This document shows positions 2 to 47,199 of a stretch of DNA of 64,000 nucleotides, one piece after another. Each line of letters starts with the position of its first letter. The first letter of the stretch is position 1. The stretch is from an uncultured Flavobacteriales bacterium. GTDB lineage: Bacteria > Bacteroidota > Bacteroidia > Flavobacteriales_G > Salibacteraceae. The notes beneath the pieces are model-generated. The model worked only from the letters and a program-made list of their open reading frames with translations. It was not told the DNA's origin and did no database searches. The position numbers and the translations under genes are program-made. The DNA is taken from positions 124,001-188,000 of the forward strand of contig CALSRJ010000005.1 in the NCBI GenBank assembly GCA_943788725.1, given 5' to 3'.

Positions 2-1231
2 TCTGCTGAGCGATTGGCGAGCATTTTCTTCACCATGGGATTGTACTTGAAGCTGTTGGTTTGGCCGCACCCCTTGACCCATGACTACTATCCTTTTCAT
101 CCCTTTCGGAGCTTTGAAGAATTGTCGGCCGGAGTAAGTCCTTACTACGATTGGTCTCACCCGGGAGCTGTATTTTCCCTCGTAGCCTATGCGCTGATTC
201 TCGGGTTTGGCTTGTTTACACTGATGCGAAGCATACGAGGAGGAAAAGGCAATGTAATCGGCTATGGCTTGCTGCTCTATTTTGGCACCTTCATCTTGTT
301 CAGCAACCTATTCTTCGATATAGGGGCGTTCATGAACGAACGTTTTCTTTTCATTCCATCCCTTGGGTTTGCCTTAATCCTCGGTCATGTGTTGGCCCAA
401 GTGATAGAAAAGCGCATGGGGCAGACCTTGGCCACAGGCCTGTTGGTTGTGGTCATGTTGGGATACGCAGGAAAGACGGTGATGCGGAACTATGCTTGGG
501 AGAATGACCGTGCCTTGGCCACCGCCGACGTGAAAACATCGGATGGTTCTGCTAAGGTGAAGATGACGATGGGCAGTGAAATGCTGGATCTCGCCAAAGA
601 GACCGCCAACCCAACGGAGAAGCAGCGCTATCTCAAAGAAGGAGAGCAGTATTGCTTACAATCGCTCAAGATCTATCCGTCCTACTTTCCTCCGCTCGAT
701 ATTCTGGGCAACCTCTATTTCGAAATGGGCAATTTCGAGTACAGCATCCACTATTTTTCTCAGGCGATCAAGGTGCGAAGGAACGATGATCGTTTGCTGA
801 CCAACTTGGAAGCAGTTGGAAACGTAGCCACCCAAAAAGGAGAATTCCAGTCGGCCGATAAGGCTTACAAAGTGCTGACGAAGTATCGAAAAGGAAAGGA
901 ATTGTCGCGCATCTACTCATCATTGGGAGAACTCCACGGCAAGAGCATGAACGACCTGACGGGAGCCAAAAGATTCTTGCGAAATGCCATCGAGGCTGAC
1001 CCGAGCAATGCAGCCGCGTATCAAAAAATAGGCATCGTATACGCCATGACGGGCGTGGCGGATTCAGCGTTGTTCAACTTCAATCGGTCTCTTGACTTGG
1101 AGCCGAAGAACGCTAGGGTTTTGTTAAACCTAGGCATCCTCTACAAGCAATTAGGGGAGGTTCAAAAAGGAGAAGAATACCTCCAACGCGCCGTAGCAAT
1201 AGATCCAACCGTAGCGAACGGTGTGAACTAG
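2..1231 (+). CDS. TMTC-like membrane protein with C-terminal TPR repeats (5' partial)
   Basis: The reading frame is open from base 2, so the gene begins left of the window and only its last 409 codons are present. The opening residues (KLLVWPHPLTHDYYPF) match the signature seen in TMTC/O-mannosyltransferase-like membrane proteins, and NERFLFIPSLGF a little later is the matching luminal/periplasmic motif. About four hydrophobic segments fill roughly residues 10-160. The rest (about 190-409) is a run of tetratricopeptide repeats, for example around PSYFPPLDILGNLYFEMGNF and PKNARVLLNLGILYKQLGE. By family this is a glycosyltransferase-like inner-membrane protein with periplasmic TPRs; the substrate cannot be read from sequence. 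A pure TPR membrane protein is the alternative. Confidence 0.8.
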   Translation, partial: SAERLASIFFTMGLYLKLLVWPHPLTHDYYPFHPFRSFEELSAGVSPYYDWSHPGAVFSLVAYALILGFGLFTLMRSIRGGKGNVIGYGLLLYFGTFILFSNLFFDIGAFMNERFLFIPSLGFALILGHVLAQVIEKRMGQTLATGLLVVVMLGYAGKTVMRNYAWENDRALATADVKTSDGSAKVKMTMGSEMLDLAKETANPTEKQRYLKEGEQYCLQSLKIYPSYFPPLDILGNLYFEMGNFEYSIHYFSQAIKVRRNDDRLLTNLEAVGNVATQKGEFQSADKAYKVLTKYRKGKELSRIYSSLGELHGKSMNDLTGAKRFLRNAIEADPSNAAAYQKIGIVYAMTGVADSALFNFNRSLDLEPKNARVLLNLGILYKQLGEVQKGEEYLQRAVAIDPTVANGVN

Positions 1232-1276
1232 GAACGGAATCATTATTTTCGCGCTCCCAATGTTAAATTGGACCAA

Positions 1277-1361
1277 GGAGAGGTGGCAGAGTGGCTGAAC
1301 GCGCACGCTTGGAAAGCGTGTTTACGGAAACGTAACGAGGGTTCGAATCCCTCTCTCTCCG
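1277..1361 (+). tRNA. tRNA-Ser (anticodon GGA)
   Basis: A type II tRNA folds here. The acceptor stem pairs GGAGAGG with TCTCTCC (one G-T pair), the anticodon stem CACGC/GCGTG encloses loop TTGGAAA with anticodon GGA at 1311-1313, a long variable arm (tttacggaaacgtaa) follows, and the T arm is GAGGG-TTCGAAT-CCCTC. The discriminator base is G. No CCA is encoded. The 3' end borders an AT-rich patch, but I found no repeat of the tRNA 3' end elsewhere that would mark an attachment site. Confidence 0.96.
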
Positions 1362-1368
1362 CAGAAGA

Positions 1369-1417
1369 AAGCCTTAATTTATTGTTATTCAATAGATTAA
1401 GGCTTCTTTATTTTATT
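1369..1417 (+). terminator. Rho-independent terminator after tRNA-Ser
   Basis: Inverted repeat AAGCCTTAAT (1369-1378) / ATTAAGGCTT (1396-1405) with a 17-base loop, followed by a T-rich tail (ctttattttatt). It directly follows the tRNA. Confidence 0.7.
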
Positions 1418-1439
1418 CTAGTCAGCGATTAGTCAGTAA

Positions 1440-1889
1440 CTCCAATTTAAAAGGACATTCAATCGGAAAATTGAAGAGGAATATCCAAACATTTCAGTTA
1501 CTACTGATGTTTACATAGGCTATCATCAGTGGAAGAATGTATATGCGGTTTTCATTAAAACATCCGAGGAGGAACTAAAACTCCTTCTTGGTTCTTATGA
1601 CACTACATATGACTATGTACTTCAAGTTTTTATTCGGGGTGAGAAGAGTGAGATTTTTCTCAAAAACAATCCTATTAACCTCGAACGTATTCTACTCATT
1701 CTACTTTATAAAATGGATCTCAATTATGAGGGCTCTATACATCAATTTGAACCCTCGAAAACACATGTCGGAAAGTTGTTGAGTAAGGAATTTTGCAATT
1801 CTTTGACCACTAGGATGAATGGAATATCAGATGATAACAAGTTGACTGATTTATTGAAGAGTCTTGCTACGTCATCTAGCTTGGATTAA
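1440..1889 (+). pseudogene. AT-rich ORF of unknown origin, apparently 5'-truncated
   Basis: Frame 3 is open from a TAA at 1437-1439 to the TAA at 1887-1889, about 149 codons, but the first ATG is only at 1713. The translated string looks protein-like (for example EEYPNISVTTDVYIGYHQWKN, DYVLQVFIRGEKSEIF, LERILLILLYKMDLNYEG) and ends ATSSSLD. Base composition is clearly AT-richer than the flanking genes. I do not recognise a family. The lack of an early start suggests the 3' part of a gene whose front was lost, or use of a rare start codon. It sits between tRNA-Ser and a broken nosZ, so a remnant of an integrated element is the simplest reading. Confidence 0.4.
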
Positions 1890-2117
1890 TGAACATAGCA
1901 CAATCCTTAAAAACAACCCCGCAAATAATCAAGATCTATGATATTGAAAAAGGCGAAAAAATGTAATAGGCCAAAAGTAAAATTAGATCCAAATGATAAT
2001 TTCAGGGAAGAAAAACAGGTAACGGTTATTTGTTGGTTGAACGACAATATAAAAGCCAGAATATTGCCCACTACCTACCTTATCTGTAACCAAACTGGTA
2101 AACGATCTAAGCTATTA
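1889..2117 (+). pseudogene. Fragment of a small AT-rich gene, possibly frameshifted
   Basis: An ATG at 1889 overlaps the stop of the previous ORF (TAATG) and opens 25 codons (MNIAQSLKTTPQIIKIYDIEKGEKM) ending at TAA 1964-1966. A second frame then continues with coding-like sequence (KVKLDPNDNFREEKQ, LPTTYLICNQTGKRSKLLYV) up to about 2117, where the DNA turns into nosZ in the opposite strand. A one-base slip in the A6 run at 1956-1961 would join both frames into one protein of about 76 residues truncated at its C-terminus. Family unknown; the joining is inference. Confidence 0.25.
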
Positions 2118-2589
2118 TATGTACGTCTTCAATGATTTCCGCCGTCTCGAACGTTGTCAGGTCTATCCGGGCGATTCGAGGGGTGTTGTTTCCATTGATG
2201 AACAGCCACCTGCCGTCGATCTCTCCGTTGGTTTGCGAGAGCTTTGGGTGGTGGGCGTCATCCCAAGGAATGAATCCGTGCGTAGTATTGAGCATGGCTT
2301 TTGACTCTTCGTCAAAACCATACCCTTTCTCAGGGTCTACAGAGAATACTGGAATCCTTCGGAAAAGTCGGCCCGAAGGCAGTCCTACAACAGATACTTG
2401 TCCACTGAATCCTCCGGAAAAGAATTCGTAAAATTCATCGTGCTCTCCTGGAGCAACATAAACAGCGGCAGCGGCATCGTTCGTGTTGAACGCACCTTGT
2501 GTCGCATTATTCGGATTGCCCTCTCCACCGCAGCTCGTGAGCAACGCCACGGCTGGTAGTAGCAGGCAAAGTTTGAGTAGTTCTTTCAT
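2107..2589 (-). pseudogene. nosZ: 5' fragment of nitrous-oxide reductase nosZ (clade II type)
   Basis: The 160 codons begin with a lipoprotein/Sec signal (lipobox LLTSC, Cys20) and run into sequence typical of the Sec-type NosZ propeller: GFIPWDDAHHPKLSQTNG, then DGRWLFINGNNTPRIARIDL. The HH pair in DDAHHP corresponds to the first two histidine ligands of the CuZ cluster. After FETAEIIE the homology stops (about 2117) and the frame ends ten codons later inside AT-rich DNA. Full NosZ is around 640 residues, so the remaining CuZ histidines and the whole CuA domain are missing and the product cannot reduce N2O. It is the third gene of an operon after the fasciclin and cytochrome c genes. No nosD, nosF, nosY or nosL follows. 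Confidence 0.85.
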
Positions 2590-2612
2590 CGTCTTTGGTT
2601 TTGTGAGGTTAA

Positions 2613-3101
2613 TTACAATTGTTGTTCGGGTGTGTATTGCCGGATATATTCAACCACTGCACGGGCTTGATCTTCTGTCAGATTCTGGTTCGCCATGGGG
2701 GAGAGATACTCCGCAAAAAGCGCTTTCGCAATTGGATCTTCTTTGACCATGACTTCTGGATTAAGTATCATGTTCATGACCCATGCTGCATTTCTGCGTT
2801 CGAGTAAGCCGGCAAGTGCGGGCCCAACGTGACGCTTATCCATCTTGTGACATGCCGTGCACATTTGTGTAAAGACTGCTTCGCCTTCAGCTACAAGGGC
2901 AGGGTCTATTTCACCGAAGGTTACTTCTTCTGTCACCGGACCGATGCCGAGGGGGTTGGCCTTGGCTTTTGGAGTATAGATCTCCATCGGTTCTGCGTTG
3001 TTTTGTGGCGTTTCATCTCCGCCACCACCGCAAGCAGCGAGTAAGGTCAGAAGTAAAAGGAGCATTGGAAGGGTTGCTGATTTCATGAGGATGGATTTCA
3101 A
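2613..3101 (-). CDS. Lipoprotein c-type cytochrome of the nos operon
   Basis: A monoheme cytochrome c of 162 residues. It has a signal peptide ending in lipobox LLAAC followed by GGGGDE, a single heme site CTACH (around residue 82) and a likely axial methionine in SPMANQNL. The start may be 3101 or the internal ATG at 3086 (MKSATLPML), which gives a more standard lipoprotein signal. It lies 15 bp after the fasciclin gene and 23 bp before the nosZ fragment, so it is co-transcribed with them. In clade II nos clusters a cytochrome c just upstream of nosZ is common and is thought to carry electrons to NosZ. Here its partner is broken. Confidence 0.85.
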   Translation of the reverse strand: MKSILMKSATLPMLLLLLTLLAACGGGGDETPQNNAEPMEIYTPKAKANPLGIGPVTEEVTFGEIDPALVAEGEAVFTQMCTACHKMDKRHVGPALAGLLERRNAAWVMNMILNPEVMVKEDPIAKALFAEYLSPMANQNLTEDQARAVVEYIRQYTPEQQL

Positions 3102-3116
3102 TTTTTATTGGATGGT

Positions 3117-3668
3117 TTAAGGAGTGAAAACTTTGTCTACTACATGCACAATTCCATTTGCTGCGTTGACAGTTCCTAAGATTTTCGCTCCGTGTACATA
3201 AGTTCCATCGTCTCGAACCTCTACTTTGACATTGTGTCCAGAAGCCACAAACAGGCTTTGTCCATCTTTCAATTGAGCTACCGAATACGATCCTGGCGCA
3301 GCGTGCATCTGAATGATAGAAATCAAGGTCATCTTGTTTTCAGGAAGAAGTAGATTGTCAACTGTTCCTTCCGGAAGGGCAGCAAACGCAGCGTTGGTAG
3401 GAGCAAAAACTGTGAGGGGGCCGTTGTTGGCCAAGGCGGTTGTCTGTTCGGCGGCTTTGACCGCTGCAACAAGCGTGGTGTGATCTTTTGATCCGAGCGC
3501 TATTTGCAAGATGTTCGGATCTGAATCTGGATCGACAATGGCTTCTTGACCCGGCAAGAGTTCTGTTTCAGGTGCTGCAGCTGCAGCGGATGGGTCTTCA
3601 GTGGATGCGTTTTCTGAGCAACCGAAGCAAATGCCTGCCATCAATAGGATGAGGATGTTCTTTTTCAT
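3117..3668 (-). CDS. Fasciclin-domain lipoprotein
   Basis: One FAS1 domain fills the C-terminal 130 residues (LTVFAPTNAAFAALPEGTV, then GHNVKVEVRDDGTYVHGAKI and NGIVHVVDKVFTP). The N-terminus is a lipoprotein signal with lipobox CFGC. An upstream ATG at 3734 is in frame, but the signal peptide begins at 3668 (MKKNILILLMAG) and the FNR-like box lies inside the longer version, so 3668 is the preferred start. FAS1 proteins recur at the head of Bacteroidota nos clusters; the role there is not established. It is the first gene of the operon fasciclin-cytochrome c-nosZ. Confidence 0.85.
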   Translation of the reverse strand: MKKNILILLMAGICFGCSENASTEDPSAAAAAPETELLPGQEAIVDPDSDPNILQIALGSKDHTTLVAAVKAAEQTTALANNGPLTVFAPTNAAFAALPEGTVDNLLLPENKMTLISIIQMHAAPGSYSVAQLKDGQSLFVASGHNVKVEVRDDGTYVHGAKILGTVNAANGIVHVVDKVFTP

Positions 3669-3725
3669 AGTGGTTGGTTTACATGTTACAGAAGGCAAAG
3701 CAAGGGATAGGGGATGCTTCAAAAT

Positions 3726-3739
3726 ATGATGCACATCAT
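3726..3739 (-). promoter_or_regulatory. FNR/DNR-like operator upstream of the nos operon
   Basis: ATGATGCACATCAT is an inverted repeat with 6-base arms and contains TGAT-N4-ATCA, the core of CRP/FNR-family sites (TTGAT-N4-ATCAA). Its centre is about 64 bp before the fasciclin start at 3668, which suits an activator site near -41.5 with a short leader. Anaerobic or NO-responsive control of nos genes by such regulators is established in other bacteria. No FNR-type regulator gene lies in this window. Confidence 0.55.
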
Positions 3740-3956
3740 ACTATACACAGAGATATCTCCATTTATCGGTATGTATTGGCAGTGTATAAGCGATATGAAT
3801 CACAAATATTTTCGCGTAATGCCTTTGGCTGTAGGAGGTGAGAAAAGGCGTTGTGTTACTTATGTTACATTCAATGCTGGTGGGGTGCATTAACCTTGCA
3901 CTCGCAATTGAACAGCAACATCATTTTTAGAAGTCAAACAAGTAAACAGAATAGGT

Positions 3957-4265
3957 ATGAGTTTTTTTGGAATGTTCGGAAACGACAGCAGCACTGAAGT
4001 AAAAGAAATGTTGAACAACGGAGCTATGGTGATCGACGTGCGCACTCCCGCAGAATTTATGGGAGGACACGTAGCAGGGTCTAAGAATTACCCGCTTCAA
4101 GAAATCCAAGGCAAGGTCAGCGAATTGAAAAATTTGGGCAAGCCGTTGGTGCTTTGTTGTCAAAGCGGCGCACGCAGTGGACAGGCAGCAGGGTTCCTAA
4201 AAGCGCAAGGCATTGAATGCGAGAATGGAGGTGGATGGATGCAGGTGAATTCACTTGTAGGCTAA
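3957..4265 (+). CDS. Single-domain rhodanese-like sulfurtransferase
   Basis: A 102-residue protein consisting of one rhodanese domain. Visible are DVRTPAEFMGGHVAGSKN, the active-site loop LCCQSGARSG with catalytic cysteine, and the closing QGIECENGGGWMQ. It has no signal peptide, so it should act in the cytoplasm in sulfur or sulfide/persulfide transfer; the substrate cannot be told. It is a lone gene, divergent from the nos operon and convergent with the peroxidase operon, and is closed by a strong hairpin terminator. Confidence 0.88.
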   Translation: MSFFGMFGNDSSTEVKEMLNNGAMVIDVRTPAEFMGGHVAGSKNYPLQEIQGKVSELKNLGKPLVLCCQSGARSGQAAGFLKAQGIECENGGGWMQVNSLVG

Positions 4266-43425: not shown

Positions 43426-45162
43426 ATGCTGCAGAAACGTTGGAACATCTTTCCCCATCCTGAAAAGGAGGAGATCGAAGACCTGAAAAGGGCCATCAAT
43501 GCCAGCGATACATTGGCGGCATTGCTCATCCAGCGACGCATAACAGATTTCGAAGTGGCCCGCCGATTCTTCAATCCTTCCTTAAAGCAGCTGCACGATC
43601 CCTTCCAGTTAAAAGACATGCAAGTGGCCGTTGATAGAGTGACGAAAGCCATCGAGTCAGGAGAGAATATTTTGGTTTACGGCGATTATGATGTCGACGG
43701 CACTACTGCGGTATCTCTGGTGTACGATTTCCTTATGCACGAGTATGAGAATGTGAGCTACTATATCCCAGACCGATATGGAGAAGGGTATGGAATCAGC
43801 TTTCAAGGCATTGACTTTGCGGAGGACAATGGAGTGACCTTGGTCATTGCATTAGACTGCGGAGTGAAGGCAATTGATCAGGTCGCGTACGCGGCAGAGA
43901 AGGGGATTGATTTTATCGTGTGTGATCACCACCTTCCTGGGGATGCGTTGCCAGCGGCGGTTGCAATTCTCAATCCGCTTCAGGAGGGCTGCGCTTATCC
44001 CTTCAAGGCTTTGTGTGGTTGTGCGATCGGTTTCAAACTCATTCAAGCATTGGCCCATGCTTGGGACATGGAAAAGGAAACGCCCTTCAAGTACATCGAC
44101 TTGGTTGCGATTGCAACGGCGGCGGACATTGTTCCGATGGTGGAGGAGAACCGAATTCTTACGTATTGGGGCATCAAACAAATGGAGCGCGTGCTTCGTC
44201 CTGGTATTGCCCAGATGTTGGAAGGGGCTGGGTTGGCGGAGAATGGAAAACTGAGTAAGCCGGTGCTCACCGTCAGCGATTTAGTCTTTAAGATCGGACC
44301 GCGCATCAATGCAGCCGGAAGGATGAAGCACGGAAGCCTGGCGGTAGATCTGTTGACGGCAACTACCCAAAAACAGGCAGAGTTGCCTGCTGAGGAGGTC
44401 AATCAAAACAACCTAGACAGACGAGAAGTGGACAAACAAACCATGGACGAGGCATTGGAGATGATCTATGCCGATGAAGCTTTGTCTGCAGCGAAGTCTA
44501 CCGTGCTCTTTGCTAAGCATTGGCACAAAGGCGTAGTGGGAATTGCTGCTTCTAGAGTGCAAGATCACTTTTACCGTCCGACCATCATTTTGACCGAATC
44601 CAATGGCAAGGCCTCAGGTTCGGCAAGATCTGTAAATGGTTACGACGTGCACGCGGCCATCGAGCAGTGTGCAGACCTCTTAGAGAACTTTGGAGGACAC
44701 CCAGCCGCCGCCGGAATGACCTTAGCCTTAGAGAACGTCAAGACGTTCCAGCAACGTTTTGAGGAAGTCGTGGCGTCTTCGATCGAGCCGGATCAGTTGA
44801 TTCCCACCATCCAAATCGACCTTGAAGTGAACTTCGTCGACTTGACTAAGAACCTACAGAAGACACTTGACCGCATGGCTCCTTTTGGTCCTGGAAACAT
44901 GAAGCCCGTATTCGTTACGCATCATGTGTGCGACACAGGTAAGAGCAAGCGGGTGGGCGATGGCACGCATCTGAAACTGGAAGTATTCCAAGATGGGAAC
45001 CGCGGTGTTAAGTTCAGCGGCATTGCTTTTGGCATGGGAGATTTGATCAGTGAAATCGAGACAGGAAAGAAATTCAGCGTGGCGTATACCTTAGAAGAGA
45101 ATGTCTACAAAGGGGTCTCTAACCTACAGCTCTTAGTGCGGGATATTCACTTTATCGATTGA
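43426..45162 (+). CDS. recJ: Single-stranded-DNA-specific exonuclease RecJ
   Basis: 578 residues with the full RecJ layout: DHH domain with VYGDYDVDGTTAVSLVYDFL (about 80-100) and VCDHHLPG (about 165), DHHA1 domain with GSARSVNGYDVHAAIEQCAD and FGGHPAAAGMTLA, and the C-terminal OB-like domain ending LQLLVRDIHFID. RecJ degrades single-stranded DNA 5' to 3' in recombination and mismatch repair. Its last 11 bp overlap the convergent barrel-fusion gene. Confidence 0.95.
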   Translation: MLQKRWNIFPHPEKEEIEDLKRAINASDTLAALLIQRRITDFEVARRFFNPSLKQLHDPFQLKDMQVAVDRVTKAIESGENILVYGDYDVDGTTAVSLVYDFLMHEYENVSYYIPDRYGEGYGISFQGIDFAEDNGVTLVIALDCGVKAIDQVAYAAEKGIDFIVCDHHLPGDALPAAVAILNPLQEGCAYPFKALCGCAIGFKLIQALAHAWDMEKETPFKYIDLVAIATAADIVPMVEENRILTYWGIKQMERVLRPGIAQMLEGAGLAENGKLSKPVLTVSDLVFKIGPRINAAGRMKHGSLAVDLLTATTQKQAELPAEEVNQNNLDRREVDKQTMDEALEMIYADEALSAAKSTVLFAKHWHKGVVGIAASRVQDHFYRPTIILTESNGKASGSARSVNGYDVHAAIEQCADLLENFGGHPAAAGMTLALENVKTFQQRFEEVVASSIEPDQLIPTIQIDLEVNFVDLTKNLQKTLDRMAPFGPGNMKPVFVTHHVCDTGKSKRVGDGTHLKLEVFQDGNRGVKFSGIAFGMGDLISEIETGKKFSVAYTLEENVYKGVSNLQLLVRDIHFID

Positions 45163-46471
45163 CGAATCGATAACTCAAGCCGACGCGCAATTGATGGTTG
45201 TGGTGGTTGACATCACCGCTTGCGAAGAAGGAGTCATCCGTAATGTCAAAGAGTCCATAGCGCATTTGTGCGTTTGCAAACCATCGTTGTGTCAACTGCA
45301 TGCGATATCCTATCAGTCCTGCTACGTCGAAGTTGGCAAATCCAGCGCGAGGGCCATTTTCATTGACAACAACGGTTTCGATTTCCCATGGAATTCCAAA
45401 GCCTACATCCTCATTTTTCATGCGTACCAATGGACTGAAGGCCATACCAAATGACACGCTGTGGCGGGCTCCAAATCGATATCCAAACATGATGGGAATG
45501 TCGAGGTATCCGACGGCGCGCGATTGTAGTTTTTGATCAGGAGTGATGACGCTAAAGTTTTGAATGATGGCTTCGCGTTGATTGTAAATGACACCCGTAG
45601 AAGCGAATAGGCGATCGTTGAAATTGTAGCTTGCTGCCAAAGACGCGTAGCTTCCGATGTCCAAAGGTTGGGGAGAGGGTGCGTAAAGGACGGCTGCTCC
45701 CAGCAGGCCAAAACCTGCAGTTATTTCGAAAACAGGACTTGAGCGTTCAAGCATGTCTTTCTTCAGCTTTTCGCGAGATAAAATGCTTGATGCGTCTCCT
45801 GCACCGAGTCGTCCTACTTCGAAGGTTGGCATTTCGCTCAGGACTGTATTCAGTGCAGATTGGGTGGAATTGAAGGCGCTTGCAGATGATTCCGGCGCGC
45901 GATTGTCGCTCACCTTCATGTCAGGAACTTGAACGCTTGTTTCGGATTCGATGGCTGCTAGCGCATCGTTAGAAAGCCGCTGAACTTCCTGTTTTGAATC
46001 GTCGGAACCAATAGCCGAACCCAGTGATGCTTCTAAATCGCTGACCTTAGTCGATTTACTTTCCTTTAAGTCTTGGGCATTGGATGCTGTTGCTTTCGAG
46101 ATAAGAGTAATTCCTTGTGCCGTTTCCAGCGCTGGAGAAGCCGAAGTTTTTGTTTCTAAAGATTCATATGCCTTATCACTGGAACGAGAGTGGCTAGAGG
46201 ATGGCGACGGGGTGGAACCTTCTGCGTTCACGACTTCGTGCACGGAAGGGGCATCAGTAACCGTCGATGCATCCGGTAGCGCAAACCAAGTGATACCTAA
46301 CAAAGCAATCACGGGCACAGCGATGAACAATGCTTTCTTAAGGAGCAGCATGCGGAAATGATTATCAAGAAGGCCACTGGCACCACTCCAAGCGGCGTCA
46401 GAATACCCTCCGGCTTCAGTTCCGCTGAGTTTCTGTCTAATTAGTTCGTCTATGCGTTCGTGCTCACTCAT
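45152..46471 (-). CDS. Putative anti-sigma-like protein fused to an outer-membrane beta-barrel
   Basis: 439 residues in three parts. Residues 1-45 are cytoplasmic-type (SEHERIDELIRQKLSGTEAG, AAWSGASGLLDNHFRM) in the position of an anti-sigma domain; one membrane helix follows (ALFIAVPVIALLGITWF, about 47-63). Residues 64-250 are a Ser/Ala/Glu-rich low-complexity linker. The last 190 form an outer-membrane barrel pattern (VFEITAGFGLLGAAVLY, YLDIPIMFGYRFGARH, HQLRVGLSYRFVNR). It lies 4 bp after the ECF sigma gene. The topology implies one chain spanning both membranes. Barrel proteins after sigma genes are frequent in Bacteroidota; a regulatory role is inference. Confidence 0.75.
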   Translation of the reverse strand: MSEHERIDELIRQKLSGTEAGGYSDAAWSGASGLLDNHFRMLLLKKALFIAVPVIALLGITWFALPDASTVTDAPSVHEVVNAEGSTPSPSSSHSRSSDKAYESLETKTSASPALETAQGITLISKATASNAQDLKESKSTKVSDLEASLGSAIGSDDSKQEVQRLSNDALAAIESETSVQVPDMKVSDNRAPESSASAFNSTQSALNTVLSEMPTFEVGRLGAGDASSILSREKLKKDMLERSSPVFEITAGFGLLGAAVLYAPSPQPLDIGSYASLAASYNFNDRLFASTGVIYNQREAIIQNFSVITPDQKLQSRAVGYLDIPIMFGYRFGARHSVSFGMAFSPLVRMKNEDVGFGIPWEIETVVVNENGPRAGFANFDVAGLIGYRMQLTQRWFANAQMRYGLFDITDDSFFASGDVNHHNHQLRVGLSYRFVNR

Positions 46472-46475
46472 GTGG

Positions 46476-47042
46476 CTATAACGTCAATGTCATCATTCGT
46501 TTCATGGCTTTTTTTATCATCTCCTGAAGTGATTTCCGCGCGAAAGAAACGTGCCATTTACTCGTTCCATCGCTGATTTCTAACATCGCTCCAATCTCTT
46601 TGTGCGAGTACCCTTCGATGGCGTAGAGGTTGAACACCTTTTGGCTCATCGCGGGTAAACGCTGGATCATCTCTCTCAGCTCCTGAGCTTCCAGTTCTTG
46701 AGCTGCGTCATTGAAATCTACAGCCCCCGTGAACGGGACTTCGTCAATGTCTGCTCCGGTCATGTGCTCCCTTCGCTTCTTATCTCTTCTAAACTCGTCA
46801 ATGATCGTATTTACCATTACCCTGGCTATCCAGGATCCGAACGGGATCTCTTCCTTGTACTTGTCGAGGTTACTGATGATCTTCAGAAAGCCTTGGTTCA
46901 AATGGCTTTCTGCATCCTCTCGGTTATTGCAATACCTCAGGCATATCGCCATGAGGTACCCAAAACAAAGGCGATACAGCTCATTGTGAGCTGTGCGGTC
47001 GTTCTTACGACACCGCGCCAAGAGTTCGGGGTGGACTTGCAT
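46476..47042 (-). CDS. ECF-type RNA polymerase sigma factor
   Basis: 188 residues with sigma region 2 (NELYRLCFGYLMAICLRYCN, IPFGSWIARVMVNTIIDEFR) and region 4 (QKVFNLYAIEGYSHKEIGAM, LEISDGTSKWHVSFARKSLQ). It lacks regions 1 and 3, as ECF sigma factors do. It would direct RNA polymerase to a small regulon, controlled by the membrane protein encoded directly downstream. Targets cannot be read here. Confidence 0.92.
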   Translation of the reverse strand: MQVHPELLARCRKNDRTAHNELYRLCFGYLMAICLRYCNNREDAESHLNQGFLKIISNLDKYKEEIPFGSWIARVMVNTIIDEFRRDKKRREHMTGADIDEVPFTGAVDFNDAAQELEAQELREMIQRLPAMSQKVFNLYAIEGYSHKEIGAMLEISDGTSKWHVSFARKSLQEMIKKAMKRMMTLTL

Positions 47043-47199
47043 GCTACTAAATACGCACCTTTTGGTGTAAGCGTTGCAATTTCAGTCGTTTTGCTGGAAC
47101 CTTCGTTCATCATTTACCTGTCGAAAGCTTTTGAAAAGCGCTCGTTCGACGGGGTACACGCAGGTTAATAGAAGAGGGTTGGGTAAGGGGATAAAAAAA

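Follow-up and report, generated by a model that had tools for sequence, protein, structure and literature searches.

The window analysed here, a stretch of 64,000 nucleotides from an uncultured Flavobacteriales bacterium, carries a pair of genes on its minus strand at 45152-47042, where the preliminary description had placed a sigma factor gene followed by a second ORF; both ORFs were recovered at exactly those positions. The upstream gene (46476..47042, minus strand) encodes a Das-like ECF sigma factor of 188 aa, recognised with Pfam (Sigma70_r2, 4e-11; Sigma70_r4_2, 3e-12) and NCBIfam (sigma70-ECF, 4e-25). According to the ORF list, 4 bp separate its stop codon from the start of a 439-aa ORF (45152..46471, minus strand), which was annotated as a putative Dma-like anti-sigma factor based on the ORF, Pfam, AlphaFold and relatives. 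The pair is flanked on one side by a NifU-like gene and on the other by a recJ-like gene in convergent orientation, with the flanking ORFs read by eye as NifU-like, Mrp-like and RecJ-like. At their 3' ends, the 439-aa ORF and the recJ-like one share 11 bp (45152-45162). Membership of a FecIRA system was considered and rejected on the two-gene operon, the nature of these flanks and the absence of a FecR domain in Pfam. The pair had been proposed to dispense with the separate receptor and anti-sigma of such systems, and neither a TonB-dependent receptor nor a FecR-type anti-sigma is encoded in the operon.

The 439-aa protein was divided into four parts. Residues 1-45 (46337..46471, minus strand) form the predicted cytoplasmic sigma-binding domain, delimited from the alignment, a profile test, a fused structural model of a relative (L050, see below) and profile comparison. 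In the alignment of 22 proteins the conserved residues of this domain were D8, L15 and W28. A single inner-membrane helix follows at residues ~45-65 (46277..46339, minus strand), seen in the sequence and as the only hydrophobic helix in the Kyte-Doolittle plot (peak of 2.44 at residue 47). The protein was modelled with AlphaFold on an alignment of 33 relatives, which gave N-terminal helices at residues 3-16 and 25-64, the second continuing into the membrane helix. Lysines lie just N-terminal of the membrane helix and acidic residues C-terminal of it, and following the positive-inside rule the protein was therefore oriented with its N-terminus inside. The third part, residues ~67-243 (45743..46273, minus strand), is a predicted disordered periplasmic tether, with pLDDT mostly <60 and much of it <50 over residues 68-240. 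Its length is kept and its sequence is not: the linker is ~180 residues long in the window and 153-218 residues (mean 187, sd 17) across the 22 aligned proteins, and identity to the window protein in this set was 15% in the linker, compared with 37.5% in the N-terminus and 31% in the barrel. The cytoplasmic part, single transmembrane helix and disordered linker of ~185 residues reported in the preliminary description were thus all seen, at a linker length of ~180 residues here.

The fourth part, residues 245-437 (45161..45739, minus strand), is an 8-stranded outer-membrane beta-barrel, assigned from Pfam, AlphaFold and the match to OmpA. Both PF13568 OMP_b-brl_2 (7e-11, residues 272-411) and PF13505 (1e-7) were above their cut-offs, and the AlphaFold model has eight main strands spanning residues 246-435 with a strand pLDDT of ~95. 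Comparisons with Foldseek and VIA-align matched these strands to the transmembrane domain of OmpA (1qjp; Z 15.7, rmsd 2.7, 134 aligned) and to other small outer-membrane barrels. A periplasmic C-terminal domain was considered as an alternative and ruled out by this outer-membrane-type fold (AlphaFold, Foldseek, VIA-align), so that the barrel first noted from the sequence is borne out. With an even number of strands, the two ends of the barrel would both face the periplasm, which a tether to the inner membrane requires. A search of solved structures (PDB) gave matches for relatives of the sigma factor only, and none for relatives of the full-length 439-aa protein.

These properties bear on how a signal could pass along the chain. 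The barrel could act as a surface receptor, binding an external molecule, with the N-terminal module opened by a conformational change or by mechanical tension relayed along the chain, and with no proteolysis involved. The barrel loops are presumably surface-exposed and the tether stays at 153-218 residues, as a mechanical leash might need; yet OmpA-type barrels of eight strands have almost no lumen, which leaves little for coupling outside to inside, and an ordered conformational relay is unlikely because the linker is disordered, with neither conserved sequence nor confident predicted structure. A disordered tether cannot transmit a push, and instead of the direct passing of a signal proposed in the preliminary description, tension or proteolysis would therefore be more likely. 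A role in glycan sensing has been proposed for the related protein Dma2 (PMC13088901), which speaks for the receptor reading, and on the whole we consider it rather unlikely.

Conservation of the pairing was assessed at several depths. The 439-aa protein was present in 36 of 60 near relatives, including all 12 other genomes of the genus, and in the relatives' loci that were read the sigma gene lies directly upstream of the anti-sigma gene. The window sigma shares 42-95% identity with its counterparts in the corresponding gene pairs of 16 relatives. A profile scan with the sigma alignment yielded 80 loci across Bacteroidota, and where the ORF after the sigma gene could be read at the loci of its nearest relatives, that ORF in most cases encodes the same N-terminus, transmembrane helix and long C-terminus. 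Profiles of the N-terminal domain and of the barrel were trained on the earlier relatives only and then applied to 78 unseen loci. At >10 bits, the N-terminal profile matched 52 of 78 sigma-adjacent proteins versus 1 of 588 other ORFs, a difference from which we conclude that the module does not occur beside sigma genes by chance; the barrel profile matched 50/78 and 1/588, respectively, in the same loci. Pfam OMP_b-brl_2 was found in 39 of 72 downstream proteins adjacent to a sigma gene. Matches to the Dma profile occurred in 253 of 296 Bacteroidia genomes; many of them are to the barrel only, so that the full architecture can be no more frequent than this. The sigma-barrel pair was read directly in dozens of loci; it is conserved across the genus and occurs widely among Bacteroidia.

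Related loci were also found in the window's own genome. At L232 (G000:C2:339000-343500, 1147-3994) a sigma gene, a barrel anti-sigma gene and a gene for a ~370-aa PKD-like lipoprotein form an operon, an arrangement also seen at L037-L048. At L231 (G000:C5:16500-20500, 1052-2913) a sigma gene is followed by a barrel-domain ORF that has no ATG before its hydrophobic stretch. Third genes of this kind bear on whether the barrel might be a mere anchor keeping the sigma at the membrane, with regulation coming from how strongly the genes are expressed or from a further protein such as the lipoprotein of the third gene. A ~370-aa PKD-type lipoprotein gene lies directly downstream in several relatives of the family and class, as well as in the three-gene operon of the window's genome (G000:C2:340-343k). 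Against this, the window pair has no third gene, since the convergent recJ follows, and the barrel's conservation is close to that of the N-terminus; an anchor only is in our judgement quite unlikely.

Contact between the N-terminus and the sigma factor was approached with the relative L050, in which both genes lie in frame, so that reading the stop codon as glutamine gave the sigma factor and the N-terminus as one chain. The L050 sigma is 72% identical to the window sigma. The fused AlphaFold model reached a pTM of 0.78, with pLDDT of 87-97 over most of the N-terminal module; it is an artificial read-through fusion with few paired sequences, and the sole combination folded was the sigma with its own N-terminus. 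Over its whole length the sigma in this model resembled the anti-sigma-bound SigW (5wuq; 155 aligned, 4.6 A) and, over 147 residues, the NepR-bound RpoE (4.7 A), versus ~26 A for sigma factors bound to RNA polymerase; these fold-search rows mainly cover the sigma factor and not the fold of the N-terminal module itself. The L050 N-terminus is accordingly predicted to pack confidently on its sigma in an anti-sigma-bound arrangement. Structure prediction of the N-terminus with the sigma, as suggested in the preliminary description, was thus carried out on the fused pair of a relative, where it gave confident packing. Taken with the conserved pairing and the shared N-terminal module, this model suggests that the N-terminus of the 439-aa protein plausibly binds the sigma factor.

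The N-terminal module also occurs with a different C-terminus. In the window's genome, two further ECF sigma genes are followed by a gene for an N-terminal module, a transmembrane helix and a CHU_C type IX secretion sorting domain. These CHU_C-type anti-sigma-like proteins lie at L233 (G000:C3:461500-465500, 1029-2258) and L234 (G000:C4:105000-108500, 1445-2398), and further ones were collected at loci L270-L296 from a search of 247 Bacteroidia genomes in which the best loci were read. Among the best loci read, all full-length CHU_C-type proteins (25/25) were encoded directly downstream of an ECF sigma gene. Their N-termini scored 97.2% against the barrel-type N-termini and 94.5% against the dma2-type; column-shuffled hhalign controls, run on the comparison of barrel-type and CHU_C-type N-termini, gave ≤2.4%. 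A search of the literature available found no paper combining an anti-sigma-type N-terminal module with a CHU_C sorting domain. At the level of sequence this sister architecture appears real, and its putative reporting function would be a lead. It is conceivable, though we hold this with some doubt, that both types are modular tethered anti-sigmas, in which a ~40-residue module and a leash are fused to a barrel or to CHU_C, each protein depending, as a client, on the export route that it monitors, with failure of that route releasing the sigma.

With these results, the 439-aa protein can be weighed against a simpler identity, that of an outer-membrane protein whose gene merely shares a transcript with the sigma gene and is under the control of the sigma. 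Proteins with OMP_b-brl_2 are often ordinary outer-membrane proteins, and Pfam recognises no anti-sigma domain in the 439-aa protein. It lacks an N-terminal signal peptide, however, and instead has an internal helix that follows the first 45 residues; its N-terminal module recurs next to sigma genes in combination with quite different C-terminal domains; and the N-terminus is predicted to pack on the sigma in the L050 model. In published relatives of the Dma kind, genetics show that the anti-sigma restrains its own sigma (PMC13088901). The simpler identity is therefore considered very improbable.

Two candidate promoters of ECF type precede the sigma gene. The proximal candidate P2 (CAACG-N15-GCGTA; 47052..47076, minus strand) is conserved in the orthologs of the genus and ends 9 nt before the sigma start codon. 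The distal candidate P1 (CCCAACC...TGCGTG; 47157..47181, minus strand) lies 105 bp upstream of P2, and all 14 upstream regions that were aligned retain its CCCAACC. Both share the form CAAC-N17-CGTR, while the stretch that separates them varies for the most part. The distance between P1 and P2 was 104-106 bp, or about ten helical turns, in genomes where both fit the pattern exactly. Across the 80 Bacteroidota loci, AAC-N16..18-CGT was found upstream of the sigma gene in 23, versus 3.9 expected from dinucleotide shuffles, and a CGT -10 box has been reported for ECF promoters of Flavobacterium psychrophilum (PMC9723704). The presence of two conserved ECF-type promoter candidates before the sigma gene suggests that the sigma may autoregulate its own operon, as in published relatives. 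Genome-wide searches with the promoter pattern gave counts close to those of reversed-pattern controls with no clear excess, and therefore no regulon is proposed.

Sequence and modelling support the gene pair, the architecture, the barrel fold, the N-terminal module, the predicted sigma contact and the ECF-type promoters. Leaving the release step aside, the locus very probably has the identity and layout of a Dma/Das-type sigma/anti-sigma pair; that its sigma is repressed and that envelope stress is the input would follow by analogy with the published relatives. In the mechanism proposed, the N-terminal ~45 residues would hold the ECF sigma on the cytoplasmic side of the inner membrane, packed on regions 2 and 4. 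The single helix would anchor the protein, the disordered chain would cross the periplasm and BAM would insert the small OmpA-type barrel. While the barrel sits correctly in place, RNA polymerase would have no access to the sigma. Failure of barrel assembly or of outer-membrane integrity, or pulling or exposure of the tether, would be the trigger, upon which periplasmic proteolysis of the tether and then an intramembrane M50 protease would probably free the sigma. The freed sigma would transcribe its own operon and an envelope regulon. An M50 protease is encoded in the window's genome. Among possible triggers, assembly or outer-membrane integrity is favoured because the EcfO-Reo system of P. 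vulgatus is induced by a BamA inhibitor and the barrel is presumed to be a BAM client. Proteolytic release upon such failure is the reading we infer and favour, tentatively and with somewhat less than even confidence.

If these readings hold, Dma-type regulation would not be confined to gut Bacteroides but would reach other Bacteroidota, in which the layout is common, and the pairs would offer comparative material on how a flexible tether turns the state of the outer membrane into sigma release. Anti-sigmas ending in a type IX sorting domain suggest a self-monitoring loop for type IX secretion, and this sister architecture is more novel than the barrel-type pair of the window, whose layout is published.

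The closest known systems are of that published layout. Dma1 was reportedly the subject of an earlier paper (Pardue, PNAS, 2024), and EcfO-Reo, known from Bacteroides fragilis as well as Phocaeicola vulgatus, is said to have been studied by Ndamukong in 2013. Dma1-3/Das of B. thetaiotaomicron form a published family in which an N-terminal anti-sigma domain, a transmembrane helix, a disordered tether and a barrel adjoin an ECF21 sigma; das2 and adjacent genes are up when dma2 is deleted, and the vesicle phenotype of delta-dma2 requires das2 (PMC13088901). EcfO-Reo of P. vulgatus has the same layout (Evans et al. 2022, PMC9308784; PMC13114119). The idea of an anti-sigma/barrel fusion put forward in the preliminary description was therefore largely right in its layout, its barrel and its plausible sigma binding, but the arrangement is not novel, having been published before.

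For comparison with Dma2, dma2-type operons were located by published synteny in two Bacteroidia genomes (sigma, barrel anti-sigma, DUF4943, DUF4858 and nitronate monooxygenase-like genes). With hhalign, the dma2-type barrels scored 97.5% against the barrels of the window family, and on this sequence comparison the two are homologous; the N-termini showed weak similarity (53.8%). The das2-type sigma is 30% identical to the window sigma, and in the sigma tree both fall in one broad set (94/93), the order inside which is not resolved, with a long das2 branch. The window protein can thus be placed, from its sequence, among the Dma-type proteins as a divergent member, its sigma being assigned neither as a das2 ortholog nor to ECF21.

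Like the window pair, Dma/Das systems have an ECF sigma gene directly upstream, an N-terminal sigma-binding domain, one transmembrane helix, a tether and a barrel, and occur in Bacteroidota only. They are known from gut Bacteroides, whereas the relatives of the window pair are of Flavobacteriales type with a sigma ~30% identical to the das2-type, and unlike in dma2-type operons, a DUF4943 gene was not detected in the window's genome. EcfO-Reo, by its published description, likewise has an anti-sigma spanning all five compartments beside an ECF sigma. Its own operon is strongly induced under envelope stress, with NigD as its known regulon, and the P. vulgatus pair is induced by two toxins, BcpT and Bd-A, of which Bd-A is reported to inhibit BamA (PMC9308784, PMC13114119). 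In FecI-FecR-FecA, too, an outer-membrane signal reaches an ECF sigma via an inner-membrane protein, but through three proteins and a TonB-dependent receptor, where the window pair has one chain and an 8-strand barrel. With RseA/RseB-DegS-RseP (sigma E) the window pair would share the reporting of outer-membrane protein assembly and perhaps the release of the sigma through regulated proteolysis. The chain of RseA stops in the periplasm, and unassembled outer-membrane proteins act on it via DegS, whereas the window anti-sigma would itself be an outer-membrane protein.
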